The notes under the pieces: model-generated
Seen by the model: the letters and a program-made list of their open reading frames with translations, nothing else
Told to the model about the DNA's origin: nothing
Databases searched by the model: none
Position numbers and translations under genes: made by a program
Assembly: GCF_016859285.1 (NCBI RefSeq)
Contig: NC_053418.1
Coordinates: 7,052,521-7,116,520, forward strand
Direction: 5' to 3'
Source of the DNA: Xiphias gladius
Taxonomy: Eukaryota > Chordata > Actinopteri > Istiophoriformes > Xiphiidae
Length of the DNA stretch: 64,000 nucleotides
Shown here: piece after piece, positions 3,809-63,927 of the stretch
How the letters are laid out: each line of letters starts with the position of its first letter
How positions within the stretch are numbered: the stretch's first letter is position 1

Positions 3809-6800
3809 TCAACTCTTCACATCTTCAGTGTTTTCAGTACATTCACTGTCCAAGCGCATGGAGCTCAGCTGCTCCTCAAAGTTCAAAAATTTATGGTTGT
3901 ACTCCTTCTCCAACATTTTCTTCCAAATTTTTACTGGAAGAAGAAATGCAAAGAGATAATTGTTAAATTTTACATTGACTTTCAACAGTGAAATCTGTTA
4001 TTGTATCCACTAATTCTTCTCTTATTCAACTACATCTCCCCTCAAGTTGATTTAATGGGTCAAATACAAAATTACAGCTTTCACTTGGTTTCATCTTGTC
4101 AGACCACTTGATATAAACAGCAGGTATCACCAAAATTGGGTGGGGACAGTAACTTACTGTATTCTGGTTCCTCTGGCTGTGTGGTGTCAGGACAAGGCTC
4201 AGCCTCTTCAGTCAGGCTGCTGATCTGCAGCTCTTCCTCAACATTGACTGCCTGCTCTGCGTCTGCCTGGCCGGTCTGCTCCAGGCTTGACACCATCACC
4301 TCATAGGCCCTCCTGGCCTCAGATGACAACTCGATCATCTTATGGTAGTAGTCCTGTGGGTAAGAAAGACAACGTTTTTAGCTTTATTAAAAAAAGAAAG
4401 AAAAAAAAACCAAAAAAAAAAAAAACACTTTTCATTGTCTTTCATGGTCAAAAACCATTTATTGATATTCTTTCTTAATTTCAAGAATGCATTTTAGTGA
4501 TTAGTGTGTACCAAACCTGACCTGTGCACCATCATAGTTGAAGATGCCCACCAGGCTGACAGGCACTGCCTTGTTGACACAGCGGCCCAAAGCTTTCCTG
4601 GACAGTGCAAACACGAATGGCACCCCCTGTTCACGACACGTGTCGATGATAGTGTGGACAGCCTCATCCAGACCACCTGTGAATAGTGACATTTTTCTAT
4701 GAATGTCAGTGTCACAATTTTTTAGCACTCTTTGTTTTTAGCTGGTGCACATTTGTACCTAGTTGTTCCCAGGTTTAAATTTGTAAATGAGTATAATGCA
4801 AGGTTTTGCAAGAACTCTCAGACAGCTGGATAAATCTGAAAAGTAGGCCTCCTTCTTAATACGTGGTTATCTGTGTTATCCAGATTAGCACATAATGATG
4901 ATTTAACATACATCAGGATATTTTGGTTTTGTGAAGGTGGTTAAAGTTCATCTGGATCTCTTGTCAGAGCAAAAATTCCTGAAGCCCAAACCCACAAAAG
5001 CGCAGGCAGCTTAATAATGACTAAGGCGCTTTACAGTGGCTCCCATAGATTAAGTAATTTTCAAATATAAACGACATGCTTTCTTGGAGTTATAATAAAA
5101 GTGTTAATATAATAATGATTTTAAATGAGAACACGCAGGTTATTGAGAAATCACTATGATCTGTTGGTATAATTATCACAATTTAATTTTCATAATGAAG
5201 AGTTACCTCTATTTATACGTGACAAAATTTATATTACGAATAACGTATATTAAAAAAAAAAGAAGAATCAAACCAAATTTAGTTTAAGATACTAAGTTAA
5301 AAGCCAAACTCAAGTAAAAGATTACTGTTAAAAGACCAATGGAGCCAGAACATATGGCATTTACTTTGACATTAAAATGAAAATGTTTCACTTTAACACT
5401 AAAACTACTTAAATAATTAACTGTAGAACTCACTTTGCTTAAATGGTTCATGCAATTAAAGCTACTTTTTAAGAAATTCTAGACAGGTGTCATCCTCATA
5501 GCAGGCTTCTCTTATCACTTAAGAGCCCCCACCAGTCATGCACCAACATCATTCCTGGTCTGAAAACATTCACTTATAATATAAAATTATTTAACTGTGA
5601 TCATAGTGTAGAAACATTGTGGAGCTGAATGCAGAACAAAGTAACAGCAGTAAAATGCAGAAAAATAAACATAAAACGAGACTTATGTCCATTAATCTAT
5701 TGCCCCAGTGCATGCTTGGAGGGTTCCAAACACACCTACCTCATGTAACTTCAAATCAAGTGATCAGCACTCAGCCAGTCATATGAACGCTGATCATGGT
5801 TTCAACTATCTACTCTTTTTGCCTTTATTTCAAAATAAGAGTGCACTGTTATTCAAGATAACTTCATTCAGAATGAACAAATCAATACTCAAACTGGGTT
5901 CAAAGAACCAAGTTCACTGAACAAGGAAAAAAAAAAAAAAACACTTTTCATTGTCTTTCATGGTCAAAAACCATTTATTGATATTCTTTCTTAATTTCAA
6001 GAACGCATTTTAGTGATTAGTGTGTACCAAACCTGACCTGTGCACCATCATAGTTGAAGATGCCCACCAGGCTGACAGGCACTGCCTTGTTGACACAGCG
6101 GCCCAAAGCTTTCCTGGACAGTGCAAACACGAATGGCACCCCCTGTTCACGACACGTGTCGATGATAGTGTGGACAGCCTCATCCAGACCACCTGTGAAT
6201 AGTGACATTTTCTATGAATGTCAGTGTCACAATTTTTTAGCACTCTTTGTTTTTAGCTGGTGCACATTTGTACCTAGTTGTTCCCAGGTTTAAATTTGTA
6301 AATGAGTATAATGCAAGGTTTTGCAAGAACTCTCAGACAGCTGGATAAATCTGAAAAGTAGGCCTCCTTCTTAATACGTGGTTATCTGTGTTATCCAGAT
6401 TAGCACATAATGATGATTTAACATACATCAGGATATTTTGGTTTTGTGAAGGTGGTTAAAGTTCATCTGGATCTCTTGTCAGAGCAAAAATTCCTGAAGC
6501 CCAAACCCACAAAAGCGCAGGCAGCTTAATAATGACCAAGACGCTTTACAGTGGCTCCCATAGATTAAGTAATTTTCAAATATAAACGACATGCTTTCTT
6601 GGAGTTATAATAAAAGTGTTAATATAATAATGATTTTAAATGAGAACACGCAGGTTATTGAGAAATCACTATGATCTGTTGGTATAATTATCACAATTTA
6701 ATTTTCATAATGAAGAGTTACCTCTATTTATACGTGACAAAATTTATATTACGAATAACGTATATTAAAAAAAAAAGAAGAATCAAACCAAATTTAGTTT

Positions 6801-9800
6801 AAGATACTAAGTTAAAAGCCAAACTCAAGTAAAAGATTACTGTTAAAAGACCAATGGAGCCAGAACATATGGCATTTACTTTGACATTAAAATGAAAATT
6901 TTTCACTTTAACACTAAAACTACTTAAATAATTAACTGTAGAACTCACTTTGCTTAAATGGTTCATGCAATTAAAGCTGCTTTTTAAGAAATTCTAGACA
7001 GGTGTCATCCTCATAGCAGGCTTCTCTTATCACTTAAGAGCCCCCACCAGTCATGCACCAACATCATTCCTGGTCTGAAAACATTCACTTATAATATAAA
7101 ATTATTTAACTGTGATCATAGTGTAGAAACATTGTGGAGCTGAATGCAGAACAAAGTAACAGCAGTAAAATGCAGAAAAATAAACATAAAACGAGACTTA
7201 TGTCCATTAATCTATTGCCCCAGTGCATGCTTGGAGGGTTCCAAACACACCTACCTCATGTAACTTCAAATCAAGTGATCAGCACTCAGCCAGTCATATG
7301 AACGCTGATCATGGTTTCAACTATCTACTCTTTTTGCCTTTATTTCAAAATAAGAGTGCACTGTTATTCAAGATAACTTCATTCAGAATGAACAAATCAA
7401 TACTCAAACTGGGTTCAAAGAACCAAGTTCACTGAACAAGGAAAAAAAAAAAAACCAAAAACAAAAAACAGGATTATTTTAGCCTGATAACAGCTTGTTA
7501 GCCCGAGTCACAGTTGAAGAACAAGGCCCTAATCTTTTACACTGTGTTTCAGCCATGTGTCCACACTAAGCTGCAATTTTAGCCAGCAAAAACATACGGG
7601 GAAAACTGAGCCTTTCAAAAATTACGAGATAAGCCTGCTCAGCAGTTAAAGAAAGAACGCAGCTTTCTGTCACTTGTAGACCACACTGTGATCACTCATC
7701 ATGTGCTGCTGTATTTTTGCCAGAGGAGGAGGAAGATGAAGGGATTTAGCTGTTTCAGCTACTGTTTTGGCACTTTGGTGTGGATGAGAATATTTACAAA
7801 AACAACTTAAGAAACTTAATCGGCAACTGTTTTGATAATCAATCCTTTGTATAATATATATGAATTATATGATGGTAATCTATAGATGTATATAATAAAC
7901 ATCTTTGGCCTTTGGACAAGTGGTCGGACGAAACAAGCAATTTGAGGACTTCACCTTTGGCTCTAAGAAATTGTGCACTTTTTCACAACTTTTTGGAAAT
8001 TTCATAAACCAAATAATTAACTGATTGAGAAAGTAATCTGCAGATTAATTGATACTGAAAATAATCTTTATTTGCAGCCCCAGTTTTCAGATTTAGCTGG
8101 CTGTATGTAGACTTTTTTCAACTTTTCTCACAAATTAAAAACAAAATAAAATAACAGCTGTGGTTACTTTTTTAGAAAAGATACTTTTTTCTTTAAGTCA
8201 AACTAAGAAGAACACTACCCTTCATGTGACTGACCTGCACATGTACTGCTCAAAACTCTCTCTACCTCTTCAATGATGGATTCATGACAATTGTGTGACT
8301 AGATGAGAATCTGAGAAAATTGTAAGACTATGTAAAATAAGTTCCTGAAAACTTCCTGACGTCAGACACAATGAAGCTCTCACAAGGACAGAGTACCTTT
8401 GGATTGAATACGTTCACAGTTGGGTGAGATGACGACACACTTGACCTTCCTGAGTTTGAGGTGCTTCAGGACCTCTCTGAGTCCCATCACAATCCGTCTC
8501 TTCATGCGGGCCTTCATGGGGTCCTTCTGGTAAAGGCGGTCCTGGAAACGAACCAGCTCCTTTAGCAGAGCGGTCACACACTCATCCACGTCTCTGCTCA
8601 GCATCTGGCTGCAGTAGCTGACATGTACAACAATGTATAATTCAATTAAACAAAAATGTGAGAAAAACAGTGATTAAATTCTGAGAGACAAAATGTTTTC
8701 CTTTTTCTCACCCACACACAATGGACACAAAAACAACCACCAAAGATTACAACTGATGCCTGAGTATACAGTGAAGGATGGCGCTTTTACAGTCTTACTC
8801 TCTGAACTTTCTGCTGTGGATTTTGGGTTGATTGACTGAGCAGGGCACAGGTAAGGTGGTTTGTTGCTCTACGGTCTCGTCTTTGTCGGTCTCCTCATCA
8901 GCCTCTTTCACCATCTGGTGTGTGCCATTAAACTCAGACTGATCGTCAGGTTCCTCTGTAGGACTCCCAACCTCATCTGAGGTTTTAGGAGCAAAAAATA
9001 AAGATCAAATATTAGCTATAATCAAAAATTTCTTTTATCTACTTACAGCCGTGATTACTTACCGTACCGAATACAATCAAATATATTCTACTTTTTCACG
9101 TGCTTGCTCTGACCTGTTGAATTTGTGTCACACTGCTTTTCTTCTGCAGGATCATCAGCAGGTTTGAACTCATTTTCAGGCAGCAGACCCCGCTCCTCCA
9201 GCAAACGTCTCTGTTTCCTCTCCTCCCTTTCTTTCAAAATGACCTGAGGATCAGACAGAAATAAACGAGGTGGCATCGCTGAAATACATTCTTATAAAAT
9301 GCAGCACATCTGTATTTGTTCTAGAATAAGTGAGCGGAATTACCTTCTTGAGAGGAGTAGGTTTCTTGGCTTTGGGCACCTCTCTCTGCTTTCCTTTCTT
9401 CACCAAAGGGCTGGTGGAGTCCAGGGGATTGTGTGCAATTTTATCCTGCTGCCAGGGTGGTTTCTTCTGGACTGACAGCTGCTTCTGGACAACAGGTAGT
9501 CCCCCACCAACTTTAAAGAAATAATTTTAAAATACACTTATTCTGGACTACGTTTTAATACCCTGCACCAACGGTTGTGGCTCAATAAGCATAGTCCTAA
9601 GAAAATTTTCCTTTTAAATTATATTTATCACAGAAAGAGAGAAAGGAGAAACCCAATGTAGCAAAGTCCAAGATGCTGACCATAACCCACCTGAGAGAAT
9701 GACTGGTTTGGCGTCTTGCTTGGCTTTTTGAGATTGTTGCTTCTTTTCCAGGGCGGCCAACATGTTTCCGATGTCCAGCTGAACAGGAACTTTGCTCTTC

Positions 9801-12800
9801 TTCCCAGACACTTTTTCAGCTTTCTAGAAATCAAGAGAGCAAGAACAGGGATACAAACCAGGCTGTCTCCTGAATGATATTAAAGGACAGTGTATTTGAA
9901 TGTAAGCTGAAAATACAAACCTGTCCTTTTTTAGCTGTCTCTGTGGGCAGACTTTTTGCTGCAGGTGATTTTTCCTTGTTCTGGTCAGCAGGCTGTTGCT
10001 GACCTCCTTCTCTTTGGTTTTCCTTAAAAAATGCAACATAGATTTTGTAAATTACTCACTATCTAATTTGTTTTAGTGGCAATCTATTGACCTCACATGT
10101 CGAAATGTTTATTTTCAGCCCTGTTGTATACATTTTAGGAAATTCCAAAACAACAGTATTATAATTAATATTTGTAAACATCTCGAAGGATAAATATACC
10201 TCATTGCATAGCTTTGCTGCATTGCTGCTGCTTATCAATCTATCAGTCCCAGTCAAAGCAGGAGTCAAGCCTGGAAACTCTTCTTCATCCTGACAAGACA
10301 AAAAGACAGCAAAAATCATTTTCCCTCCAACATTTAAAAAGGGAATCTACACTTATTTTCAAAATATAATGGGTTTTGCTTTTGAATTGAATGAAAACAC
10401 AGAAACTATATGAATTTACCTCAAATTTTGGAAGCTCCTGATAAATTGCTGGTTCTTCTGACTCCACTTCTGCATCTTCACCAGCACCTTTAGCCTTTTT
10501 CTTCTTTTTCTTCCGTTTTTTCTTCCCTGGGGCTCCCTCTTCCTGCTGCTCAGCCATTTCCTCCATCTGACAAGATGTAAAATAAGGGGACAGAAAACAA
10601 CGTTGAAACACATGGCAGTGGCCACAAGGTTTTACCTGACAAATATGACTTATTTAGGGTTATAGTCACCGAAAGACCATCTCGGTAATCCTTTAAAACA
10701 GCAATTTTTGGAATAGTCAAGGACAGGAAAGGGCTTTCCCACCTCCATAAAAATGCTACTCCATTTGCATCACTGGTCATATATTGCTTAATTGGAATAT
10801 AAAGGAGACCTCCAACTTACACTCAGTGGATCCAGGAGGTGATGCTACTATTGAATTTGGAGAAAGTTAGGTACTCTGTACATCGGTCAGAAGAGAAATA
10901 TTACAAATCATGGTCATCATAAAATAAAGAGGACCACTGATGCATCAAATTTTGACATTTGACTGCTGACAGGTACACTGGCTGTTAAAAAGGAAGATGT
11001 TGTTACCCATGTCATGATAACATAAGCACTTATTAATCTACCTGCATGTGGTTGCTGCTGATTGTCTTCTCTTTAGGGACGAGTTTCTTCGGAGGCTGAG
11101 AGGCGACATTAGCCCAGGATGTCACCACTGGCTGACCTGTTCACAAGAAAAAGGATAATCAATATCTGAAATATTATTACCTTTGCCTTATAGTATTTGG
11201 AAAACCAACGACAGGAACTTTCACCCTACCTGGTGTGATGGCAGGGCAGTCTGGCTTAGCATTAGTGGCACTTTGTTGGGGATCAGTCTGTGTTGGGGAT
11301 TCTCTCCTGCCAGACTATGCAATACAAAATTACGGTACCAGTAAAGCACCAAATTCAAGTGTGTAGCTGTGTGTAAGTGGAGCATTCACCGCTAATTTTT
11401 ACAGAGTATCAAATCTGATATTTCACTGAGCTCACCTTCCAGGCAGATGCTGACGTTTGCATTTGAGGGCTCTTGGACGCAGGAGTTGGACCCCAGCACT
11501 CTTTCTGAACAAGAGGAGGGCCTGCTCTTCCCAGCGAAACACCAGCCAACTCTGGGAAATCAGCCATCTTCACTTCAAATGGAACAAAGTTGGTCTGTGC
11601 TGGTTTTGACCTCCCCGCAGAGTTCGGGGCAGATCTGGCATCTCTAAAACCTGAGGATCAATTACAAAAACTTACTGCAAAGGTCTGCTACAAACCTATT
11701 TTCAGTAACTGGAGTGTGGGAAATCAAATGACGAGTTCACCAAAAAGTTTAGAAAAAAATTATATGATTTCTGGAAGATATTTTTTTGGGGAAAAAAACC
11801 CCCCAGAAATTTCTTCATTTGGCTGGCATTCGTGATAACTACCTCTTTTCTGCGCATCCATTGTGTTCCTGCCCATGATTCTGCCTTGAGCAGGAGAGTC
11901 ATTGTTACTTTTTGATGCCTGTGGAGATGGGTGAAAATCCCTAAAATTAATTTCATGAAGAAAGTTTGTTTTATTTACTTCTTTGGTACTCAAAATGAAA
12001 CCAACCTTTGATAGTGGATCCCGTACGGACCTGTCTCTCTGTAGAAAATCATCACCGGTCCCTTTAACAGGACGGCTGTTGCTGTAGCCATGACTCCTTG
12101 GTACATCTCCTCCTTTTCTTGCTGGCTTTGGACTCAGACGTGACTGCTTCCTAACAAAGATCCAAAATTTACACAAATAAGTAGTTGAATAATTTAAACA
12201 GTTGCCCCAGGCCATTAAGTAAGCCATTAACGATTGGCTACTTTTACCAAGACAAAAATATTATGCCTGTCATTATCGTCCTACCCTTTTGAAATGTGGT
12301 TGGAAACATGGGGATTTGGTAACATCAGAGGTGGTGATGAAGCTGTGTGTGGCTCAGCAGGCTCCTTTCTTTGTCTCCTCTGGTATTTAGGGTCAAAAGA
12401 CTGGACGGCAAAAAAAAAACAAAAACCCATAACATAACTTTTTAGCTAAAACCTCTCTCCCCCTTTGGAAAAAAGAAAGACAATACGTTAATCACGTTTA
12501 CGTTAATCACCAAATATCTATACTTTATGCACTGTTTGTATCAAAAAGTAGAAGATTAGGTTGGAATAATGATTCTGGAGAAGAATTAACAAAGGCAGAG
12601 CGGAAAATTTTTTGTTTATAGCCACAAGTTTTAACCATTACAACCAGGTTCAAATTATTACAATATACTGTAAGTAGTTCAGTAGTAGTTGAATACGTGT
12701 AAGTTACATAAGTTCAGTCCAGACATCCCAGACCGGTGCATTAAAGGTTTGGAAGATAAAGGGACACTATATCGTTGTTCAAAGGAATGTCCTGTTATCA

Positions 12801-31400: not shown

Positions 31401-34400
31401 AGGCCTCAAGGTCCCAGATTTGTAGAGGACATATTTGTTAATGCTGTAGAGATAATGTGAAAAAAAACATGTTAAGTCAGATACAATCACAATTAGCTCA
31501 TCAATAACTAAATAGATGTTGGGGGCTCTGGACATAAAGGACATCAAATTTGTGAAATGTGGTTTTTTATTTAATATGTTAACATTGTACTGTTGAACAA
31601 AGTACTAATAATTCTGCATTAATGATACTCTGATAGTATTAATGAGCTCTGCTAAGCTATTTGAATGGTTGTAAAGAGCACAGAAACCACCGGGGGAGCT
31701 CTCATACATGCAAGTGTGAGCCCAAATGTAGCAATCATAAGCAGTTTTTTTTTTTTAAAGATGGACAAACATGTGATTTTTGTTTTGAAGAGCTTGTACT
31801 ATAAACAGACCAAAACCTTATTCTTACTTGTGCCTCAATGCCGAGATGGGCAGATTGTTCAGTTTCTTGATGGCCGCCAGGGCTGCGTGGCTGCGCTCAT
31901 GTGAGCGCAAACCTTTCAGAGACATGAATGTGCGCCCACACTGTTTGCAAGTGTGTTTGTATTCTCTCGATTCCAGCTCCGGCTGTTCAGGATCAGTGTG
32001 TTTTGAAGGCAATGACTGCGGACTTGTTGGCAAAGTGAAGGTCTCTACTGGTGTCACATTCCACTGGGTCAGCTCCTCCACAGTTTCTAAAATGGGCAGT
32101 TCATCTTGCGTACAGATCTGAAAATTTAACACAGCAACTGTCACCAACTTTTAAACTTACTAGTGTAGCTCAAGCATGAAAAAAAGAAAAAAGATCCAGA
32201 ATATAAATGATCATACGGGCAGAGTCAACTTACTTCAATGGATGTGGCCTCTGGTGTTGTCGTAAAGACAAACGATGCCTTTGTCTTTGCAGCCGGTGTT
32301 CTCTCTTTCATCCTTGCTCTATGGTGATCCAGGTGGCGACACAGCTTTCTAATTCCATTCAACTGTTTTCCGCAGTGGTCGCATCTGTAAACCCCTGTGC
32401 TCTTCTTTGACTCCCGTGATAACACAGTGAAGTCCGATTTGCAGTCTGAGCTATGAAAGATACAGTAGTGGGCAATAAGCAGCTGAGATGATTCAAACGT
32501 TAAGTTTGGACACTTCTTACATCTGACGTGTGCACTTTCCGCGGATGTAGCTTCGAGCAGGCAGCGGGCCTTGTTGCGTTTACGCTTGTTATACTTCTCC
32601 AGCAGCTTGTATGTGCTGAAGGCATCCAATTTGTGAGTCTTTTTGTAGTGACAATGCAGATACCTCCGACACACTCCGGAATAGGTACACATGTGGCACT
32701 TGTACAGTGACACCTTGTTTTGCACTGACACTTGACACGTCTCAGGAAGGCTCTGCTGTTGACTGTGGTCAATTTCTGTGGGGTTCACTGTCGATATTAC
32801 TGAGCCCTGAGAGCCGGGATAAGGCTGTTTTTCGGTTTCAGTTTCAGTTTCAGCTGAATGGTCAGAAGCTGCTGGCGCTGCCTGACTGTGGTACCTCTCG
32901 CTGTGGACTTTCAGTTTCATCCATGATGCATAAATCTGTGGACATTTCTTACACATATACCCTCTTTCTTTAGAACCTTTTCCCATCGTACACCTGACTA
33001 TGTTGGTTACAAGTATTTCATCCGTTTTAAGTTCATCTGCCCTGGCTATGAGGGCTGGATGCTTCATTTGGCAGTGAGTGAGAGTTCCGTGGTAGCTAGC
33101 ATTCACATAGGGACAGGTTGGACACTTGTAGACTAATATTTTGTTTTCTTCAGTCGTTGCGCTAGACTCACATGCCTCAGAAGTGTTTGCTGGTTGCTGA
33201 GTTGTAGGGCAGTCAGGAGATGTTAGCACTGTCTTCTCTGGGACCTGCTTGTATAGTGGTGCATAGTATTTTAAGAAAGCGTTCTTTCCATGTTTCTTAG
33301 TATAATGGTTTCCGAGACGCTTTTTCCTGAAATAGGATCTGGAACACAGGACACACTTGTATACACAATCCTTAATCTTTGAAACAGATGCGTTCCTGTA
33401 GTGAACACGCAAGTGCCGAGCAAGCGCAATTTTTGTGCTGCAACTGTAACTGCAATGCTGGCACCTAATTACGGCATATATTTTTTTCCGTAAAAAGGAA
33501 GCCTTCGATACTGATCCGAGAGTGCTGTGGGTATTAAATTGTTGTGTTTTACTCATAGCTGATGGTTTAGGAGCCGGTTTGAGCGTGTTTGGCACAGTGT
33601 TCGCCACAGTCTCATTGTGGTCGTTCTCACAGTGCTTGTTCATTTTCTCCAGCGTTGCATAGACCTGAGGGCAGGTTTTACACATGTACCCACTAAGTTT
33701 CAGACTGTCACAACCTTTTCTTTTCAAACCGTCGTCCCAACTGTGTAGATGTGATTCATCCATGTGAAGACTGTCCGCCCTGGATACCAAGGCAGGATGC
33801 TTCTTCTGGCAGTGAGTGAGAATTCCTTGATAGTTGGTATTGATGTAGGTACAATATGGACACTTAAAGACGTGCACACGTGTTTGGATTTGTACTTGCT
33901 GTTCATGCCGTTCTTGCTGTTCGTGCTGTTCATGCTGTTCACACTGTTCATATAAACTTCCAGTTACAGCTTCTTGGTGTTTCATTCCACAGTGAGTGCT
34001 GAGACCCCGCTGGGTTTGAAACCTTGCAGGGCAATAATGGCACTGGATCATTGTGGGAGATGCTGTTGCTTCACGAGGAGAACCAGGTGACATGCCAAAT
34101 TCAAGAGGCACTTGGTAGGCGTCAAATAACCCTGGTATTTCATTGGGGTCTTCCACTTGGCTGTTTGCACTTGACTTCTTGTTGGTGATGACATTCAGGA
34201 CTGAGCCGTCTTCTTTCACGGACCAAGGGTGAACGGCTCGGTAGTGGCGTGTGATACTCGACATCGAGCTGCCTTTAAATGAGCATGCTCTGCACGAGTA
34301 CGTCTTGGTTTCATTTTGTCCAAATCTTTGGGACAGTACGGTGGCATCAGTGCCATCGCCGTCACTGATACCATCAGTGTGCCTTATTTGAGGTTTCTTC

Positions 34401-37339
34401 CTTTGAGGGGGGGTTGCGTCGGGACCGACATATAACTGAGTGGAGACGTACTCAAGGGTCACTCTACGTCCCGGGTGGTTATCCTGGTAGTGACTATGGA
34501 CTGCTGCTGCATCTTCGTGAGAAAAAACGCACAGGTCACAGTGATACCCTGACTGTAACATTCCTTGTTTAAAGCACACTCTCAAAACATCACTGACTGA
34601 GCGATTCGCCCGGTGGGTTTTCCACATATGCCTTCTCAAATGATACACATACTGACTGCTGTATGTGCATCTATGGCACTGAAGGGTCCTTTGTGTTTGT
34701 GTGGCTCTCACTGAGGGTGACGCGGAAAATGACAAGCACTTGGCAAGAGTCTTTGTTTTTGTCTTTTTATTTCCTTTTTTCCCACAATTAACTTCTTGGT
34801 TTGCAGTTGCTTTTAAGTGCAATTTCTGTGTCTGTTTGAGAACCATGGAAGTATACAGATGGATTTGATCGGCCTTAATCTCAAATCCACGATGTCTTTT
34901 GAAGTAATGCTTTATTACATGATTGAGGGTATTCTGTCTATAGTTGCAAAAGTGGCAGAAAAACATATTTTCATCGTCTTCATTCAGAAGTGGAAGAGGT
35001 AGACGAGTAGAAAAGGATAACTCCTTTGTGTGAGATTTGGATTTTTCAATTTCATCCCGGATCAAAGCTGTATGTTTAATAATACATTCTCTGTTGGAAT
35101 TAATGTGCCGGTGAATTATGGCTTGATGGTTCAATACCCCTTTTACAGTTGGATTTCCAAAGTTGCACTTTTGGCAGTAAAACAACTTTTCTGCGCATGC
35201 ATAAGGATTTAATGCCGTCATGGAAGCATCTGCTACGTCATCCTCTTCATGTTGAAGTTCTTTTTCACTACACACCTTAACACGTTTACTAGTTTGAGAA
35301 TCAGAACATGCAGTACTTGCTGAGGCCTCAGCATCACTTTGCAGTTTCTTTTTTTGCACCTCAGCAGTATACGACAAGATCTGTTCAGTACCTGTTAGTC
35401 GATGTGCAGCATGTTTTGCGTTTTGATGACCAACAACGCTTCTGATGTTGATACTTGAATAACTGCAAAACTGGCAGTAAAACATTTTACTCGGTAAACT
35501 GGAGTATAAACTGTCCATTCCTGCAAACACTTCCCTGTCACATTTGGTAGGTGACATCTTTGTTTGGCCTCTGTCCTCTGCAGATTTCACCTTCTCCGTT
35601 TTGGGAGACTCCGAACGAGTCTTAGAAGCGTCTGGTGCGTGCTTCAGATTCATCACAGACAGGGAAATCTCTTGCTGTGACTTCTCAGGTGTCCTCTGTG
35701 ATGTTGTCTGTGGTGCGACATGAGCCGACTGTTTGATTTTTTCTATCGTGACTGCATCATCTGGATGGCCTTTTTGATAGTGGGCGTGCATAACAACAGC
35801 TGACTTATGCGTAAAGTTACAGTTGTTGCATTGATACAGAACCGCGTCTGCTCCTTTGGAGGTGAGATGCTGGGGTGAGGATGCATTTTTGACTTCCTCA
35901 TACTGTGTATTTGCAATCTTGGGAGAAATCCCTTCTGATCTTTCTGGGCTGTGTGTTTTTTCACATGCACTCAACTGAGATGATCCCTCTTGGCATCTAG
36001 TCGCTGAATATCTGCAGTCCAACAACCCATTATCCACTTTATGTTTTGGGTGCTTTTCCTTGTAATGTTCTTTCAAGGCCTTCAATTCGTTGGTGGTAAA
36101 TGGACACACGAAACATTTGAAAACCAAACTGAGTTCACGCGAATGCGCGAATACTTTGGGCGCCTTTGGATGATTTTCTGCATAGTGTCTCTTGAGGTCA
36201 GCTATACTTAAAAACTCAACTGGACAGTCCAGGCAACGAAAGGTAGCACTCCGATCACTCGGATCCCGAATGTAGACGGCGTTACATCTTATGTATGGGT
36301 GGTCTTTCTGGTAATGTGCAGACACGCTTCTGACGCCCACATCACTGTAGTCACAGTGCTTACAAAAATAAACTTCTGGGCTCTCTCTGTCTCCATTAAA
36401 AAGAGGAACTTTCTTATCTTCTTCATCTTCACGGATGTCAAATGAAAACTCTGTGCTGCTTGATGATTGTTGTTTACTTACCTTTGCTTTCTCCGGGAGC
36501 TTTGCCTCTTCTTTGTCTGTCTTTGCTTTTTTAGCAGGACACCTTTCCGGGCTTTCACAACTGGTCCTCTTGCCAACACTGTTAGGAGCCATGTCTTTGG
36601 ATTTTTCCGCAGGCTTTGGGTGTCTCCTCAGGTCAGTATTTAAAGGGCGGTCATTTAGCATAAATTGGTCGGAAACAGTTTTGGAGAGATCAATCATGGA
36701 CTTCGCAGTGACTTTAAACACACCGCTACTGTTTGGGCTGGAGCTTGAGGGAGATTCTTGCAAAATCAGGGTTCCTTTGGTGTGATCTAGAAGCACTGGG
36801 CTCTCAGCTAACTTCACTGAGGGTTCCCCATTTGATCCAGACGGTCCTGGAAAGTATTTGGTGATGGTTTGAATTTGCACCGGCCTCTTGTGTGTTTTCA
36901 GATCCTTTGATGAGTTAAGTGAGCATGTAGTTTTTGAGGTAGACATAACTGCACCTTCCTTGCGCTGGTTTGCCGGAATGACAGTTATTTTGGTCTCCCT
37001 GTCTGCAGAGATTATAAGATTTCTCAACCCGTTCTGCTTCTCAGATTTTCTGTTACACTGTTTCTCATGTTCATTTAAACCCTCCCGACCACAGGCTGTA
37101 AAATCACAGCGCCGGCATGAGAGGTTATTTCCGGAACTGTTGCTTTTGTCATCACTGTTGACTTTGTCAGCCTCAGGGTTTTGTAAACCGGCAGCTCTCA
37201 GAGCGGTATCCACATCCAAGCCGTGCACCTCGTTCAGATGTTTAAAAAGGTAGACTTTGGATTCGAAGAGGAGTGTGCAGTGACTGCAATGGACAGACTT
37301 GATCCGAGACTCGGCGCCGGCAGCTTGACTTTGCTTCAT
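25479..37339 (-). CDS. ZNF462-family C2H2 zinc-finger protein (znf462-like paralogue)
   Basis: A large nuclear multi-finger protein; human ZNF462 acts in chromatin and developmental regulation. Exons, 5' to 3': 32234-37339 (a 5.1 kb exon), 31828-32117, 31325-31443, 30605-30739, 30238-30481, 29349-29491, 29031-29254, 26142-27270, 25479-25621; 7,533 nt, 2,510 aa. I count about 30 fingers: 22 in the giant exon, one or two in most later exons, and a last one (FTCGFCGRNLT) ending RHIMRHGL. Family identity: EPPDVQRQLNHY, RVVPIEVRRPKLSRYLQG, NMIDHIVLHR and ELVGQVSLDQLQ match human ZNF462 closely. Differences from human as I remember it: the N-terminal several hundred residues carry one finger plus one C2HC-like finger instead of several, two fingers after LKGLRSHERSH are missing, a finger module is duplicated, and a 376-aa acidic linker precedes the last finger. 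Start chosen: the first ATG (MKQSQAAG) after the acceptor, in a CCAC-ATG context. One intron is GC-AG. Confidence 0.85.
33895..33952 (-). repeat. Coding 9-bp repeat (Glu-Gln-His tract)
   Basis: Within the giant zinc-finger exon, an imperfect 9-base repeat encodes the tract EQCEQHEQHEQQERHEQQ between two fingers. It is in frame and uninterrupted, probably a length-variable linker. Confidence 0.85.
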
Positions 37340-37355
37340 GTGGCTGGAACGTGCA

Positions 37356-38000
37356 CTGAATCTGAGGAGGCAATGCAAAGGATAACACTGAATACTCAGC
37401 TTAATTTGATGCACTACACTGAATCAAGACTTGACACTGTCGGCAAAACTCACTGCAATAAAAGCATTTTTGCATCTTGCATTCCTCCTAAAAACCACAG
37501 CCTTATATATACAGAAACAGCTGTGACACACCTAGAGGATTGAAAGCATACGTTATTGCATTGCTCAAGGTAGAAAATCAGGTTTTCTACTTTACAACTG
37601 TTAAAGTTAAATGCACTACTGAGGGTTTCTACAGATATCTAGAAAGTGAAACTGACACAAAGAGATACGCTGGCTCTTCAAGCATCGAAGGATAATCAGC
37701 TGAACAGTAGCCCAGCAACGGTAGTAGGAGCAAGTGAGGACATCGGTATTTAACTTTAAATCAGGGAAGTTCAACAGGAAAGAGACCTAAAACGACACAA
37801 AACAATGGAAAGATAAAGAGCGGACAGTTACAACTAGCTAACATACACACGGCTGCACGCGAACGACGTACTCACGCGGGCAGACAAACACAAGACGAGG
37901 TTTTTTCGATGCGATGTTTTGAATCGCTGATGCTGATTACATGAAGGGACCACACGTTTCCGCCATTTTTCCCGCGAGTGCAACTCTCACCGCTTCCTCT
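37356..38000 (-). promoter_or_regulatory. 5' UTR intron, non-coding exon 1 and YY1-type promoter of the ZNF462-like gene
   Basis: On the minus strand AAAAATGGCGG (about 37,961-37,971) matches the YY1 site often found just downstream of start sites in TATA-less promoters. A GTGAGT donor follows at 37,875, defining a short non-coding exon of roughly 37,876-37,980. The intron then runs to the acceptor before base 37,355. The flanks are CpG-rich (cccgcgagtg). The ATG inside the YY1 motif opens a nine-codon upstream frame. Confidence 0.55.
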
Positions 38001-40939: not shown

Positions 40940-45494
<4,555 letters not shown>

Positions 45495-46628: not shown

Positions 46629-49600
46629 CTAACTTACTATGCTGAGTTTTACTAAGATAACAAGTAGAATTATATTACAAAGTGGAAACAGACCTACGTA
46701 TGTAACACACAAAAGTCTCAAACCGGACATATTTCTTAATTCTACCACTATAACAACACAGGTAACAACCATTTGAGTGTTTATCCAGCCTAAAAGGTTG
46801 TACAGCAGCCTCCTCCATGTTGAACAGAGCTTCGGGTGCAAGTACCTATGTATGTAGTGATCTGCTTTCACTGTTGCTGCCCAGGTCAAAAATCCCACAA
46901 AGTGACCCAAGTGCAAACCATGCCACCACAGTGAAAAGCCAAAAGTCATGAACAACGGGAAATGTGTACACCTTTTGTAAACCAGTCTACGCAGCCACGA
47001 AGCTGTTGTGGCGTTCCATCGACGGGCAAACTCTGACATACGGCTCGACGCCTCAGTCGTCCAGAAATCTCCATCAGTTGGTCCGCTCCGGTCTCGAGAG
47101 TCCCCCGGTGAACTTTCGCAAAACCCAAACCCAGCTGCGTTATTGAGGCACTCGCTGATCCTCCAGTGAGAGTAATATTGGATCCTCAAAACCAGCGCAA
47201 TACCCCAAACCCACAGGATGCCACAAAGGACAGCAGAGCAAGCGGGATCATAGATCGTTTGTCTTATAAAATAGACAAGACAAAACCTCACCAACTCCAG
47301 CAATAACACCTGTATCAACTTTAGGCACACCACACCCAGTGGACTGGGCGGAGGGTTGAGGCTGATTCCCTCCATAAGGGACACAAATTGGCTGTAGGAG
47401 CACAAAGGGCCACCAAGCAAAGTGGTGAAACTGAGGATGTAGCTGATAAGAGGGAGAAACATCACACAGCCATTACTTTTGGATGAAGCGTTAAATGTGA
47501 ACATAGCTCGTTTCTCCTGGAGGTCCATGGACACTGAGGTGATTCTCTGAGTGAGCAGCATCAAAGAGGACACTGCCAAAAACAATCTGAAAGTACAAGA
47601 GGGGGTAATTTGATTATATATGATTTTTTTTTGTCAGAAAGACGAATAAATGTTCATATATCTTTATGCATGTTACGTTTTTACCCAGAGCAAGGAGCAT
47701 AATGGCGTCCAAAAGCTGGTTAGAAGTTCATCATTAACCTTGGAAACAACACTGGACTAAACAATCCCATTTTAAGGTCCATTTAGTAGATGTTTTCGAG
47801 CTTTCGATCATATGACAAAGTTCATTCTTGGAAACAGGAGCTGACAATTTCTTACAAAAAGTCAGCATGGATGAGGGGTCCTCGGAGAGCTGAGAATCAT
47901 GGAAAGCTTGAACCTCTAAAGTTCAGTGGTAATTAAGAGCATAACCCAGTCTGCCGAAGAGAACCATATGATGAACTAGTTTGTTTTGTCAAATGACAAA
48001 ACAAACAAACAAACAAACAAAAAAAAAAACACTTTTCAAGTTGGTGGAAAACAATTGGTCTAATTCTGAAAGGAAATCTTTGCAGCAAACGTTTTAATTG
48101 TTGCATTTTATAGGCAGTGGGCTGGAAATAGCTAATAATGTTTTTATTTCTTGTTTCTTTCTGACTTTCTGCATTCAGGTAATATTTGTGGGGGTTTTTT
48201 TTTTTTTTTTTTTTCTGAGAGTAAGTAGTCCAAAGGAGACCATCACATTAGACTTTTGCTCTTCAAAGCTATTAGCTGGAAATATTTACCATGAGTAAAC
48301 GGTACCTCTCTATGTTGTTTAATCATCATCATCTATGTATCTTAAAGGATAAAGCTTGTGTCATGCTATATTTTTGTTACTCTGAACAAATTCCATTTAA
48401 AAAAAAAAAAAAAAAAAAAAAGGCCAAAACTAACGCTGCTTTAGTCCGTTTCTCAGTACTGTCCAACTTCCTAAGATTGTCAGTGGCTCTCAAGCTTGAA
48501 AACATGACTCATTAAAAAAAGGTTTAAAAACAGGTCACAGGGTTGTAATAAATTTTTTTTGAAATGGTGAAATAATTTAAAACACCTACAGGTACTGTAT
48601 TTGAGCAAATGTTGCCCAAACAGCAGCAAATCGTGCATTTTTGAGGACTATTTTCGGTTTTTGTACAACAATTGGAGCTTTATGGCAAAGAGGAACAAAT
48701 TATATCAGGTGATAATTGTTAGTAGGATCAATTCATTGTTTAGATTAATGAGATTTGTTGACAATAAGAATAATACAGAATCTCACTAGACTCATCCTTT
48801 AAATGCATTCATTATTACCCAGACAGCAAAGGTATTTATTCATAACTGATACTGGATGCTCTGGCAAAGCATGACGGTGTCAGCTTACAAACCGGTGAAT
48901 TGATTTTAGATTAGTACCTGATGCTGACAGGCTCATGCAGGCAGTATTCCCTGTACTGTATAAGCAGGTGCCAGAACGTTTGCCACAACATCTGGGTACC
49001 AAACACCCAGGTGTGGATATAGCCGGGATCCACAGAGACCAGGAGAAGAATAAAGACAAAGGTGGAAACGAACAGGAGCGTGCTGTAGATGCCCATTGTG
49101 GAAACTGCCATGACACATCCCCCAACAGAAACAAAGAGGTACCTGTAAGAAGAAATTAAGTAGAAATTCACGTTTACAACTACAGCTGCAACAATGAGTC
49201 GACTAGTTGCTTAGTCGAACCAGGAAAGGAGTCCGCCAATATTTTGATCAGTTAAACGTTTAAGCCATTTTTTAAGCAGCTGGGTTGCAGCTTTTCCAGT
49301 TTGAGGATTAATATTGTTTATCTTATAATTTCCATCATTATAAATTAAATTGAAATTGAATTGGGTTTTGGACTGTTGTTTGGATGAAATGTACATTTTT
49401 TTCCATCAACAAGGACTCTGTGGAAATGTGATGGGCATTTTTCACTATTCATTAATAGACCAAAAGATTAATCGGGGAAAATGGTTTGCAGATTCCTCAA
49501 TAGTGTAAATTAATAGTCACTTATTGTGGTCCTGAATGATCAAGATCTGTCATGTAAGGTTTATTTGAAGAGCACATTTAAAACAACAAATATTACAAAT

Positions 49601-50078
49601 AAATAAAAAATACTAACAAATAATAATGAAATAAAAATAAATGACTATAAATAAATGTAAAAAACTGTTGATAGTACTGTATCCCCTGTTAAAATACTAT
49701 GGTTAAGCTATTGCCTTACGTTCCAGTTGGACAGATTATTTCATACAAGGACACATTTACAAATCAAACTTCGTGAACTTCCTAAAATTTTAATCCAAAT
49801 CAAATAATAAATTCACTGAAATATCTGACCCATTAGAGTCTCTACTTTCCCAGAGTAACAATGCCCCGTAATATACTAATGAATTACTTGACACGTTGCT
49901 TTTAAAATGAAGTTTAGAATAGAATAAAATCAATCAATTGATATGTAATTACATACCTGTACGTCAAGGACAGATATCCGCGTTTAGCAAAAAAATAAAA
50001 CAAAAATGCAAATGGAAGTGAAAAGCATTGCTGCATTAAAAACTGATGTTGTTCCACCAGCCAGTTGATCAAACCCAT
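46629..50078 (-). CDS. mboat4: Ghrelin O-acyltransferase (GOAT), 3 coding exons
   Basis: An ER membrane-bound O-acyltransferase that octanoylates a serine of ghrelin. Exons, 5' to 3': 49957-50078, 48918-49142, 46629-47586; 1,305 nt, 434 aa, essentially the human length. Seen: several hydrophobic spans, RYLFVSVGGCVMAVSTMGIY, WQTFWHL..YREYCLHEPVS, LMLLTQRITSVSMDLQEKR, LLGGPLCSYSQF, YYSHWRISECLNNAAGFGF, and the MBOAT catalytic pair: Asn in RRWNATTASWLRRLVY at residue 307 and His in WWHGLH at residue 338. Both numbers equal those of human GOAT, which supports the start at MGLINWLVEQ. It is convergent with coq2. Intron 1 contains a dispersed repeat, part of which was copied into the LINE 3.6 kb away. 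Confidence 0.95.
49175..49510. repeat. Palindromic teleost repeat, full-length copy in mboat4 intron 1
   Basis: Runs from agctgcaacaatgagtcgac through tttgatcagttaaacgttta, ttgggttttggactgttgtt and gtgatgggcatttttcacta to agattaatcggg and tagtgtaaattaatagtc. This is the organisation of the same AATCGATT family seen at 7.8 and 57.5 kb, in the same orientation as the 7.8 kb copy. Confidence 0.65.
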
Positions 50079-51400
50079 ATCTGAATTTCAGGTTGAATGT
50101 CACAGACAAAACAAAGACACTATTCGGACACCGTTGGTGCCGATTGTCCTATTAAAGAGGTGAAATACTTGCTTTGCCTGCATGACTCTCTTTGTCATTC
50201 CACCTGTGGCTTGCGTTGAAGTAATGCTTTTGTTTACCATTATCACAAAGAACCGATAATGGTTATTCCTTTTGTTTAACGATATCAGTAGTGGGAAGCT
50301 CTTTGTCAACTCATATTTCAGCAACTATAGCAACAAAATTTTTTTTTTTTTTTTACCTCTGTGTTTTTACGTTCCTAAATCAAACAGACAGCAACTCAAG
50401 AGGTCTGTTTTCACTGTGTTATTCCACCTGGCGTTTTACTGGAAAGAACTTGCTGGCTTGGTAATGTTTTACCTGGATCTGATAATGGACATTTCATTAT
50501 TTCTTATTTTTAATCAGGGTTGCTTTATAATACAGTGGTACAATGGTGGATTCTGTATAAGACAGTACAAGTTAAAACTTTTAACAAACTGTCAAACCTT
50601 CATTTTTCTTACGGTCTGCGCTTTCCACATTTACAGGGATTTACTGTATGTGAGAAGTAATAGGCATTGACTCCCAGTGGTGTAAAATAACCATGTACAT
50701 GTGCTCAAATGGTGTACTTAACTACTTGTACTTCATTTGAGTATTTCCATTTCAAGCTACTTTGTACTTCTAGTCCACTGCATTTCCGAGGGAAATACTG
50801 TATTTTTTATTGCACAACATTAATTTGACGCCTTTCATTCTGTTAATTATTATCTTAATTCTTAGAGTGATATCAAAATTAATATTAATGTCCATATTGC
50901 TAATAATGAAAACCATCAAATTATATTAGTATTGATAAATAACATTGTCGACATCATCATTCTATTAATATGTATAATAATCAGGATCATCATCTTTTTT
51001 TTTCCTAATAATGATCTATGTACTAGTTGATAGACCATTATTTCATAAATTATCCATAGTAATCAAACATCATCATGATCATTCTATATACATGTGTAGT
51101 AATATTAATAATAATAGTCTATATAATAGTAATATTAATATACAGTAACAGCCTTCTCCTGATGTTAGTAATGGCCTGTGTGATAGCTTTCATGGTAACT
51201 ATTTCTATAATAATAATTATGAAAAATGATAACGGAAATAAAAACAATAATCACGGTCATCATGACACATAGTACATATTTAAATATAAATAATATAAAT
51301 AGTAATAACTGTCATAATGACAAATAGTAATAGTATAGCAATACTGATATATTAACACATTTTATCGTTGATGGATTGAAAAAAACAACAACAAATAAGT
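50079..51400. other. AT-rich spacer upstream of mboat4
   Basis: Contains the mboat4 5' flank, a hAT-like AAGTACTT fragment at about 50,672-50,825 (ccagtggtgtaaaataacca at its start, ctactttgtacttctagtcc within), and low-complexity ATA/ATT-rich DNA from about 50,880 to 51,340. No exon was seen. The open frame of about 130 codons near 50.3-50.7 kb is AT-driven and has no recognisable domain. Confidence 0.55.
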
Positions 51401-54400
51401 AGTAATAATTACCGTTACCCTCTCGATAACTGAATTAATTACAGTAATTAAAAAAACATTAAACATGAAGGGAATGCTGAATTTGGAAGGGTAGAGACTC
51501 AATCTGAATGAACAAAATAGAAACAAAAAATAAACAAAAACACATTTGGTATGTGGTGGGTAACTGTTTGTAGCTACATTTAATTCCATGGCTCTGCAAG
51601 AAGATACTAAAATGATGAGAAGAAAAGAGAGAAAACAGAGGGAGAAAAGAACAGGAGCACAGAACACAGCAACTAAGATGAGAGGAAAAAGATGAGGAAA
51701 GGATGGAGGGAAAAGAAAAGAAACCACTGAAAGTTAGACGGCGAAGGAGAATGTGTGCATGATATGAAATTGGACTAAGGGAGGCAGGATTGATTGGGAT
51801 TGAAAGTGTGTGCGTATGTACTCATTCATCACTGCATTGTGGATTGGAGATCAGGCAGTAGTGGAGGTTAATTTATTGATGAGTGGGGGCCAGGTTTTAC
51901 TGAGATCATTGGAAATTATTGCCAATAATGAGGGCTGTCAGGAGAATACCAGAAGTAGGGTTGCGTAATTGTAACGCTGATAGGTCGCCTGAGATGTAGA
52001 CCTCTGGGGATAAAGGGATGTGGCAGTCCAGTAAGTGAGTTAATTGATCTGTAACTTGGAGCCAAAAGTGCCTGATTGGTGAGCAGTGCCAAGTTTCATG
52101 AAAATAAGTGTCAGCTGTGTTTTGTGAACAGTATGTGCATGGTCCAATTCAGTAAATCCCATTTTGTGTAATTTCTCACCAGTGCAGTGTATTCTATGAA
52201 TAACTTTATACTGTATGAGTTTTAAGTTTGTGTTATTGCTCTTATTGAAGTTATTTTTGCAGATTTGGGTCCAGAAGTCGGCCTTGGTATCAGTGGAGAG
52301 GTCTCGGTCCCACTTGGAGATTGGATGAGTTAGACTGCAGAGAGTTCTGTGGAGTTTTGATAGGATGGTCGATTTTAATTGCAGGTACTCCAGAAACCGT
52401 GTATTCCAAATGCCGAACTTCTGGATTAGATGTTGAAAATTTATGAAGGTACTCCCTTGAAAGATGTGGTGAAGATGTTTAATTCCTTTATCCTTCCAGG
52501 TAGTGACAACAAGCTGACAGGGTCGAAACTATTGTTATGTTTTGAAAACAGTAATCTTGCTTGATGTTTTGGCTGATGAATGGATGTTGTTGCATATTTC
52601 ATGTTCAGTTTCTAATCAGAAAGAATCAAGTTTTGGAAGACTGAACCATTTTTTTAGAATATTTGAGCCATTGCTGGCCAGGGGATATTATTCAAAATTC
52701 GGGGCTTCTAATCCCCCCTGGGATTTTGGTTTTTGTAAAGTTGAAAGTTTTATCCGTGGAGTTCTGTTTTTCGGGTAAAATTTTGAGATGGCCAAGTTGA
52801 GGGATTTAAACCAGGATGTGTTGGGAAAAATAGGGATTATTGACAATAAGCATTTGTTTTTTGGTTGCAGCTTTTCCAGTGTGAGGATTAATATTGTTTA
52901 TCTTATATTTATAATTGCCATCATTATAAATTGAATATCCCTGGGTTTTGGACTGTTGGTTGGACAAAATGACCTTTTTTTTGTATTCAACAAGGACTCT
53001 GTGGAAATGTGATGGGCATTTTTCACTATTCATTAATAGAACAAAAGATTAATCGGGAAAATGGTTTGGAGATTCCTCAATAGTGTAAATTAATAGTCAC
53101 TTATTGTGTTCCTGAATGATCAAGATTTGTCATGTAAGGGTTATTTGAAGAGCACATTTAAAACAACAAATATTTCAAATAAATAAAAAATCTAACAAAT
53201 AATAATGAAATAATAATGAAATAATCCCCTGGGATTTTGGTTTTCTTAAAGTTGAAAGTTTTATCCGTGGAGTTCTGTTTTGCGGGTAAAATTTTGAGAT
53301 AGCCGAGTTGGGGGATTTGAACCAGGATGTGTTGGGAAAAATAGGGATCATAGACAATAAATAGTTGATTTTTGGTAGGATCGACATTAATTAATTATTG
53401 CTATTCTTATGGAAAGAGAAATAGGGAGGTTGGTTGGTCCAGCAATTTAACTCTTCTTGTATTGATTTGAGTAGTGGTGTGGAGTTTGGATCGAACAGTT
53501 CTGGCAGCTTAGGAGATTGCCTGTGGGGACGTGATAAGGTGATACCAATGCTGCCACATCCCTTTCATTCATACCAAGCGGTAAGATGGTGGATTGTGAC
53601 CAATTCACTGAGTAATTGCAGAGTTCGAGAAAGATTTTATAACCGCGAAGCATTCTTGCCGTGATGAGTGAGGGTCCTGAAGGAGTAATAACACATCATC
53701 TGCGTAAAGAATAATTTGTGCTGTGTACTGGATGGATATCTTTGATGTTTCCATTTTGCCTCATTGCAGCTGCCACAGGCTCAATGAATATAGCCAAGAG
53801 GGATGGAGAGCGAGGACAGCCATGCCTGGTCCCTTTGTATACAGTGAAGTTTTTTGAGATCAACACATTGGTAGGGATGGTGGCCATTAGTGATGTGTAT
53901 AGTCCCGTTATCCTTTCAACAAATGACTCTCCAACCCAAATTTCCTTAAGGTTATAAATAAGAATTTCCAATTAACTTTGTCAAATGCTTTTATGGCGTC
54001 AAGTGATAGAATCATGGCGGTGGATTTTTGGTGCTTTGAAAGCTTCATCAGGTTGAATAGTTTGCAAGTGATGGCAGATGACCGTCTTCCTTTGATAACA
54101 CCTATCTGATTGGGATGATTGAGAAAGGAGATGACTCCTTCAAGTCTGGATGCTAATGTCTCGCTTCTCATTTTTATGTCTGTATTGAGAAGGGAGAGTG
54201 ACTGATAATTAGCCGGATGAGTGCGATCTTTGTTAGGTTTCAAGAGTAGGGTGCTCATGCTGTATTTATAGTTTGAGGTATTTTGGAGGTGATTGTGAGT
54301 TCACCTATCATTGTTATGAACAGTGGGTAGACGGTTGTCCAGAAATGCTTGTAGAACCCAGCAGGGCAGCCATCCGGTCCAGGTATTGGGCATGCTATTG

Positions 54401-55711: not shown

Positions 55712-63927
<8,216 letters not shown>

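Follow-up and report, generated by a model that had tools for sequence, protein, structure and literature searches.

In zebrafish, a 5-bp deletion in exon 13, at the VPVSL site, shifts the frame and disrupts sbp2; homozygous mutants still make a subset of selenoproteins, and when both sbp2 and secisbp2l are lost selenoprotein synthesis stops and juveniles die at 14 days (PMC8881744). In U2AF1, which has a tandem duplicated exon, transcripts with both or neither of the duplicated exons have stop codons and are lowered by nonsense-mediated decay (NMD; PMC5224494). Similar structures also arise in assemblies: one study describes false duplications as mostly separated by gaps and sometimes joined through incorrect gap filling, and it also reports a true allele-specific tandem duplication within one contig, at haploid depth (PMC9516828). 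Here we describe a 64-kb stretch of the swordfish genome (C19:7052521-7116520, in an assembly of 691 Mb and 1,298 contigs; hereafter the window), where a segment of secisbp2 with one coding exon, designated K, occurs twice head to tail. We read it, with moderate confidence, as a real, evolutionarily young and probably polymorphic tandem duplication of ~1,515 bp. No report of a secisbp2 exon duplication was found among the open-licence PMC literature matches listed.

The minus-strand exons encode the RNA-binding domain of SECISBP2 (SBP2): they match Pfam Ribosomal_L7Ae (PF01248, E 2.3e-20), and among solved chains the best match, at E 3.4e-70, is 7zjw_B of human SBP2, far ahead of the runner-up at 6.7e-06, with query residues 1-152 aligned on chain residues 636-787. 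Exon K covers about residues 706-756 of the human chain and carries the VPVSL motif, by which it would be the same exon as exon 13 of zebrafish. Coding pieces further upstream, to ~11.6 kb, look like the remainder of the gene. A paralogous locus on contig C1 matches at 69-71% over two exons, and has one K-equivalent exon, also of 51 residues; on the human SBP2 match, the C1 locus is taken as secisbp2l and the window locus as secisbp2.

The two unit copies differ by 5 substitutions and one 1-base indel across 1,513 aligned columns (0.33%), at an offset of 1516/1515; their BLAST alignment (1,528 columns, 99.6% identity) has E = 0, which excludes chance similarity. Each copy of K has its AG acceptor and GT donor (CAG|GTCAGG), so that exon and both splice sites are present in each head-to-tail copy, as in a tandem exon duplication. 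The exons are the same at 155/155 nt, the adjoining sequences at donor and acceptor are also identical between copies, and the single indel sits upstream of the acceptor. The preliminary description had given just this picture, of a 1.5-kb unit present twice with about five substitutions and one indel, bearing an L7Ae-domain exon of secisbp2 with both splice sites in identical copies, and with breakpoints in A-runs of at least 12 (we count 14, 15 and 13); its coordinates, 4425-7453, need adjusting only at the start, which had been set at the last base of the left A-run and belongs at its first (4412). Purifying selection is not supported as the cause of the K1/K2 identity: at the observed divergence 155 bases would stay unchanged with a probability of about 0.6, and the identity therefore does not point to selection. 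At rates of 1e-8 to 1e-9 per site the divergence would translate into ~0.17-1.65 million generations; we do not use this age as evidence, and were gene conversion at work it would be a minimum.

A repeat that meets the A-runs of the unit allows a single-copy ancestor to be read. Searching the genome with the unit (best 40 of 182 candidates scored, so that counts are lower bounds) listed 64 matches, namely the two unit copies and 62 others at 67-87% identity, which reveal a dispersed repeat within the unit. In alignment with six relatives (L003-L008), the repeat in copy 2 runs across the right A-run into CAGGATTATTTTAGCC, a continuation similar to that seen in the relatives, and the repeat in copy 1 switches at its A-run into the intron adjoining K. 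Since the repeat spans the right edge intact and breaks off at the middle one, the middle junction is derived and the ancestral order was left flank, unit, right flank. This middle junction consists of the right A-tract joined to the left A-tract. The two unit edges share a 16-bp word, A9CCA5, and the middle junction is without the CC, so that either the CC dropped out or the exchange fell within the pure-A stretch. Same-strand A-runs of at least 12 number 14 in the window, including the two edge runs, and make up 0.35% of it; the joint chance of both edges falling in such runs is about 1e-5 if positions are independent, a figure calculated after the fact. A retroposed or transposon-carried copy was ruled out: the unit encloses the repeat, the middle junction truncates it, and the unit edges differ from the repeat edges.

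Two observations concern the repeats themselves. The A-rich stretch 7442-7470 within the dispersed repeat is missing from all six aligned relatives; it is read as an A-rich insertion into the repeat that would later have become a breakpoint. In the right flank, 7810-8099 has matches at 39 listed genome places (best 40 of 795 scored), which belong to another dispersed family, a short one.

The consequences for the message follow from the length of K, which enters in phase 1 and, at 155 nt, is not a multiple of three. On the minus strand the order is J, a 2,204-nt intron, K2, a 1,361-nt intron, K1, a 168-nt intron, L, a 224-nt intron, and M. Joined as J-K-L-M, the frame is open from J through to the stop in M. 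Joined as J-K-K-L-M, it reads 51 wrong residues and RTTTIR and then stops in L, 177 nt ahead of the last junction; without K (J-L-M) it stops three residues past the junction codon. Thus only mRNAs with exactly one K copy stay in frame, and those with K1 alone or K2 alone encode the same normal protein, since neither the exons nor the junctions at which they are spliced differ. Under the customary 50-55-nt rule the position of the stop in the two-K mRNA predicts its degradation by NMD. The second copy, therefore, gives no added protein sequence, and new protein sequence from it was ruled out as an explanation. Here we depart from the preliminary description, which spoke of an exon duplication within the RNA-binding domain and did not mention the 155-nt length: two copies shift the frame, and no exon is added to the domain.

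This frame logic is also what would be seen in a long-standing pair of mutually exclusive exons of the U2AF1 type, where each mRNA takes one of the two and NMD polices the outcome: one copy leaves the protein intact, and none or both lead to a stop. That such a pair can persist is shown by U2AF1 (PMC5224494). The K donor differs from the commonest donor form, and this might allow one copy to be skipped occasionally. What was found at the locus is that only a single-copy mRNA keeps the frame, and that the exons have not diverged into two proteins; identical exons and splice junctions offer nothing to choose between. All four introns exceed the length at which steric exclusion operates, and nothing suggests that the splice sites are incompatible. 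The divergence is also small for an old pair, unless gene conversion homogenizes the copies. We regard an established pair as very improbable. It is unlikely, though less so, that the duplication is real and already fixed, with secisbp2 output set by how often the spliceosome takes one or two of the identical copies. If it were, the selenocysteine machinery would hold a newborn pair of mutually exclusive exons, kept in check by NMD alone, and secisbp2l would meanwhile carry the load.

Our favoured explanation, a young tandem duplication, would begin with two intronic A-tracts, one on each side of a secisbp2 exon, that recombined or allowed a template switch. As the introns are all long and the splice sites show no incompatibility, inclusion of both K copies, partial or full, would be the expected default; the K2+K1 mRNA would lose its frame beyond the portion of the L7Ae domain that K encodes, stop in L and undergo NMD, and the duplication would behave as a loss-of-function or hypomorphic allele. 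Overall, a real duplication would probably be either damaging or silent. Loss of the gene may be buffered by the paralogue secisbp2l, and the duplication is most likely still polymorphic, or present since the gene tolerates loss. A real duplication is plausibly survivable, because zebrafish sbp2 mutants are buffered and the C1 paralogue has one K-equivalent exon.

The more serious competitor is a false heterotype duplication, in which the assembly retained both alleles of one 1.5-kb segment and linked them through their terminal A-runs, by overlap or gap closing, while the animal has one exon K. The preliminary description had named this artefact, alongside a young duplication, as a haplotype collapsed into a false tandem; collapse would leave one copy, and what is relevant is an un-collapsed (falsely duplicated) haplotype. 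Such errors make up 0.3-2.3% of the three Vertebrate Genomes Project (VGP) assemblies tabulated in one study, mostly on the same scaffold, and 3.7-15.9% of three earlier assemblies, and copies joined by wrong gap filling are reported (PMC9516828). The usual, though not constant, gap between copies is not present here, there being no N in the 64-kb window, nor in the 239,780 bases of loci retrieved, some of which overlap it. We found no second contig with a near-identical unit among the matches scored (best 40 of 182). The right flank, 7600-10600, likewise gave none (best 40 of 795 scored): the sole full-length match is itself, and none of the other 39 exceeds 270 bases or 81% identity. A similar tandem (direct repeat of at least 150 bp at 90% identity or more) was seen in 0/18 sampled 10-kb control stretches (20 drawn, two beyond their contigs; 180 kb). 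Finally, 13-15 A's would be an abnormal overlap for a long-read assembler, if one was used.

Several points weigh on the other side, against a real duplication. A divergence of 0.33% is also ordinary between two alleles of one fish, and so fits an allelic difference. The second-contig search covered the unit and the right flank, and a left-flank haplotig would escape it; the 180-kb control is small, and allows tandem rates up to about 17 per Mb. There are 10 pairs of A-runs of at least 12 that lie 0.5-5 kb apart in the window, so that suitable edges were available to chance too. Contigs naturally end at homopolymers, and overlapping A-runs could let a gap-closer join two allelic contigs. A frameshifting duplication in a conserved gene should be disfavoured by selection, and the predicted harm of a real one favours a false one.

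The absence of a gap, the lack of a second contig for unit or right flank, and the homology-matched junction make us lean to the real duplication, and we hold the false one to be possible but the less convincing account. Between the two alternatives of the preliminary description the letters thus lean one way. They show directly the repeated unit, the polarity of the junction and the reading frames; presence of the duplication in the animal's DNA, its origin, its splicing and the ensuing NMD are inferred. Counting the established pair together with the favoured young duplication, it is rather probable, slightly more so than for the latter by itself, that the duplication is real in one form or the other.

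Positions of the features of the secisbp2 locus are collected in Table 1.

Table 1. Features of the duplicated secisbp2 segment and its surroundings, numbered from the first base of the window
Feature	Position	Strand	Description
Unit copy 1	4412..5926		holds A14 run, exon K1, flanking intron, truncated dispersed repeat
Unit copy 2	5927..7441		holds A15 run, exon K2, flanking intron, dispersed repeat extending beyond unit
Exon M	3809..3933	-	last coding part, ends ...NTEDVKS stop
Exon L	4158..4353	-	penultimate; site of premature stop when both K copies are spliced in
Exon K1	4522..4676	-	155 nt, L7Ae domain
Exon K2	6038..6192	-	155 nt, identical to K1
Exon J	8397..8604	-	upstream RNA-binding-domain exon; span runs from ATG codon to donor, and the exon may extend further 5'
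Left A-run	4412-4425		14 A
Middle A-run	5927-5941		15 A; derived junction, joins dispersed-repeat interior to intron beside exon K
Right A-run	7442-7454		13 A; ancestral right edge of unit
Dispersed repeat, copy 1	4853..5926		~1.1 kb, cut at A-run; left end approximate
Dispersed repeat, copy 2	6368..7540		passes through A-run to usual end; both ends approximate
Substitution (copy 1/copy 2)	4488/6004		T/C
Substitution (copy 1/copy 2)	5022/6537		T/C
Substitution (copy 1/copy 2)	5026/6541		G/A
Substitution (copy 1/copy 2)	5385/6900		G/T
Substitution (copy 1/copy 2)	5464/6979		A/G
Indel between copies	4692		one T missing from T-run

Elsewhere in the window, 8 open frames were tested against Pfam, 2 of them without a match. 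A 1,732-residue frame (32228-37423, minus strand) has many C2H2 fingers and matches the Pfam ZNF462 finger models; others match MBOAT acyltransferase (46632-47633, minus strand), glycine cleavage P-protein (60474-60860, plus strand) and, below the Pfam cut-off, UbiA prenyltransferase (44980-45423, plus strand). Self-comparison of the window yielded, beyond the unit pair, two direct repeats at 49-53 kb (at least 150 bp, 90-91% identity) and two short matches at 77-84%, one of them direct and the other inverted. The direct repeats, 49283-53376 and 53911-54300, adjoin a reverse-transcriptase fragment and are probably LINE-related.

If real and common, the swordfish duplication would be a natural test of a frameshifting exon duplication surviving its first generations in a paralogue-buffered gene; if an artefact, it cautions that secisbp2 gene models built on this assembly may carry a spurious frameshift or lack their C-terminus. 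Set against the systems described above, a homozygous and default-spliced duplication would resemble the zebrafish frameshift allele at VPVSL. Like the K pair, U2AF1 exons Ab/3 are a tandem duplicated non-triplet exon (67 nt) in the gene of an RNA-binding protein; unlike it, they have been kept through vertebrate evolution, have slightly diverged and give two isoforms, whereas the K exons are identical. The K pair is at most a newborn case of the U2AF1 kind, with no new protein and no shown regulation. Disease-causing intragenic duplications (for example in DMD, LRBA, TCF12 and PAH) are likewise reported as recent, within the gene and comprising an exon with flanking intron, but they came from patients with a phenotype, while the secisbp2 case comes from one assembly and has none. 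VGP-type false heterotype duplications share with it near-identical copies on one scaffold and an exon-scale effect on the gene model; they are mostly gap-separated, whereas the secisbp2 unit is a gapless 1.5 kb with A-tract-matched edges (PMC9516828). In kind, then, the secisbp2 duplication is ordinary.
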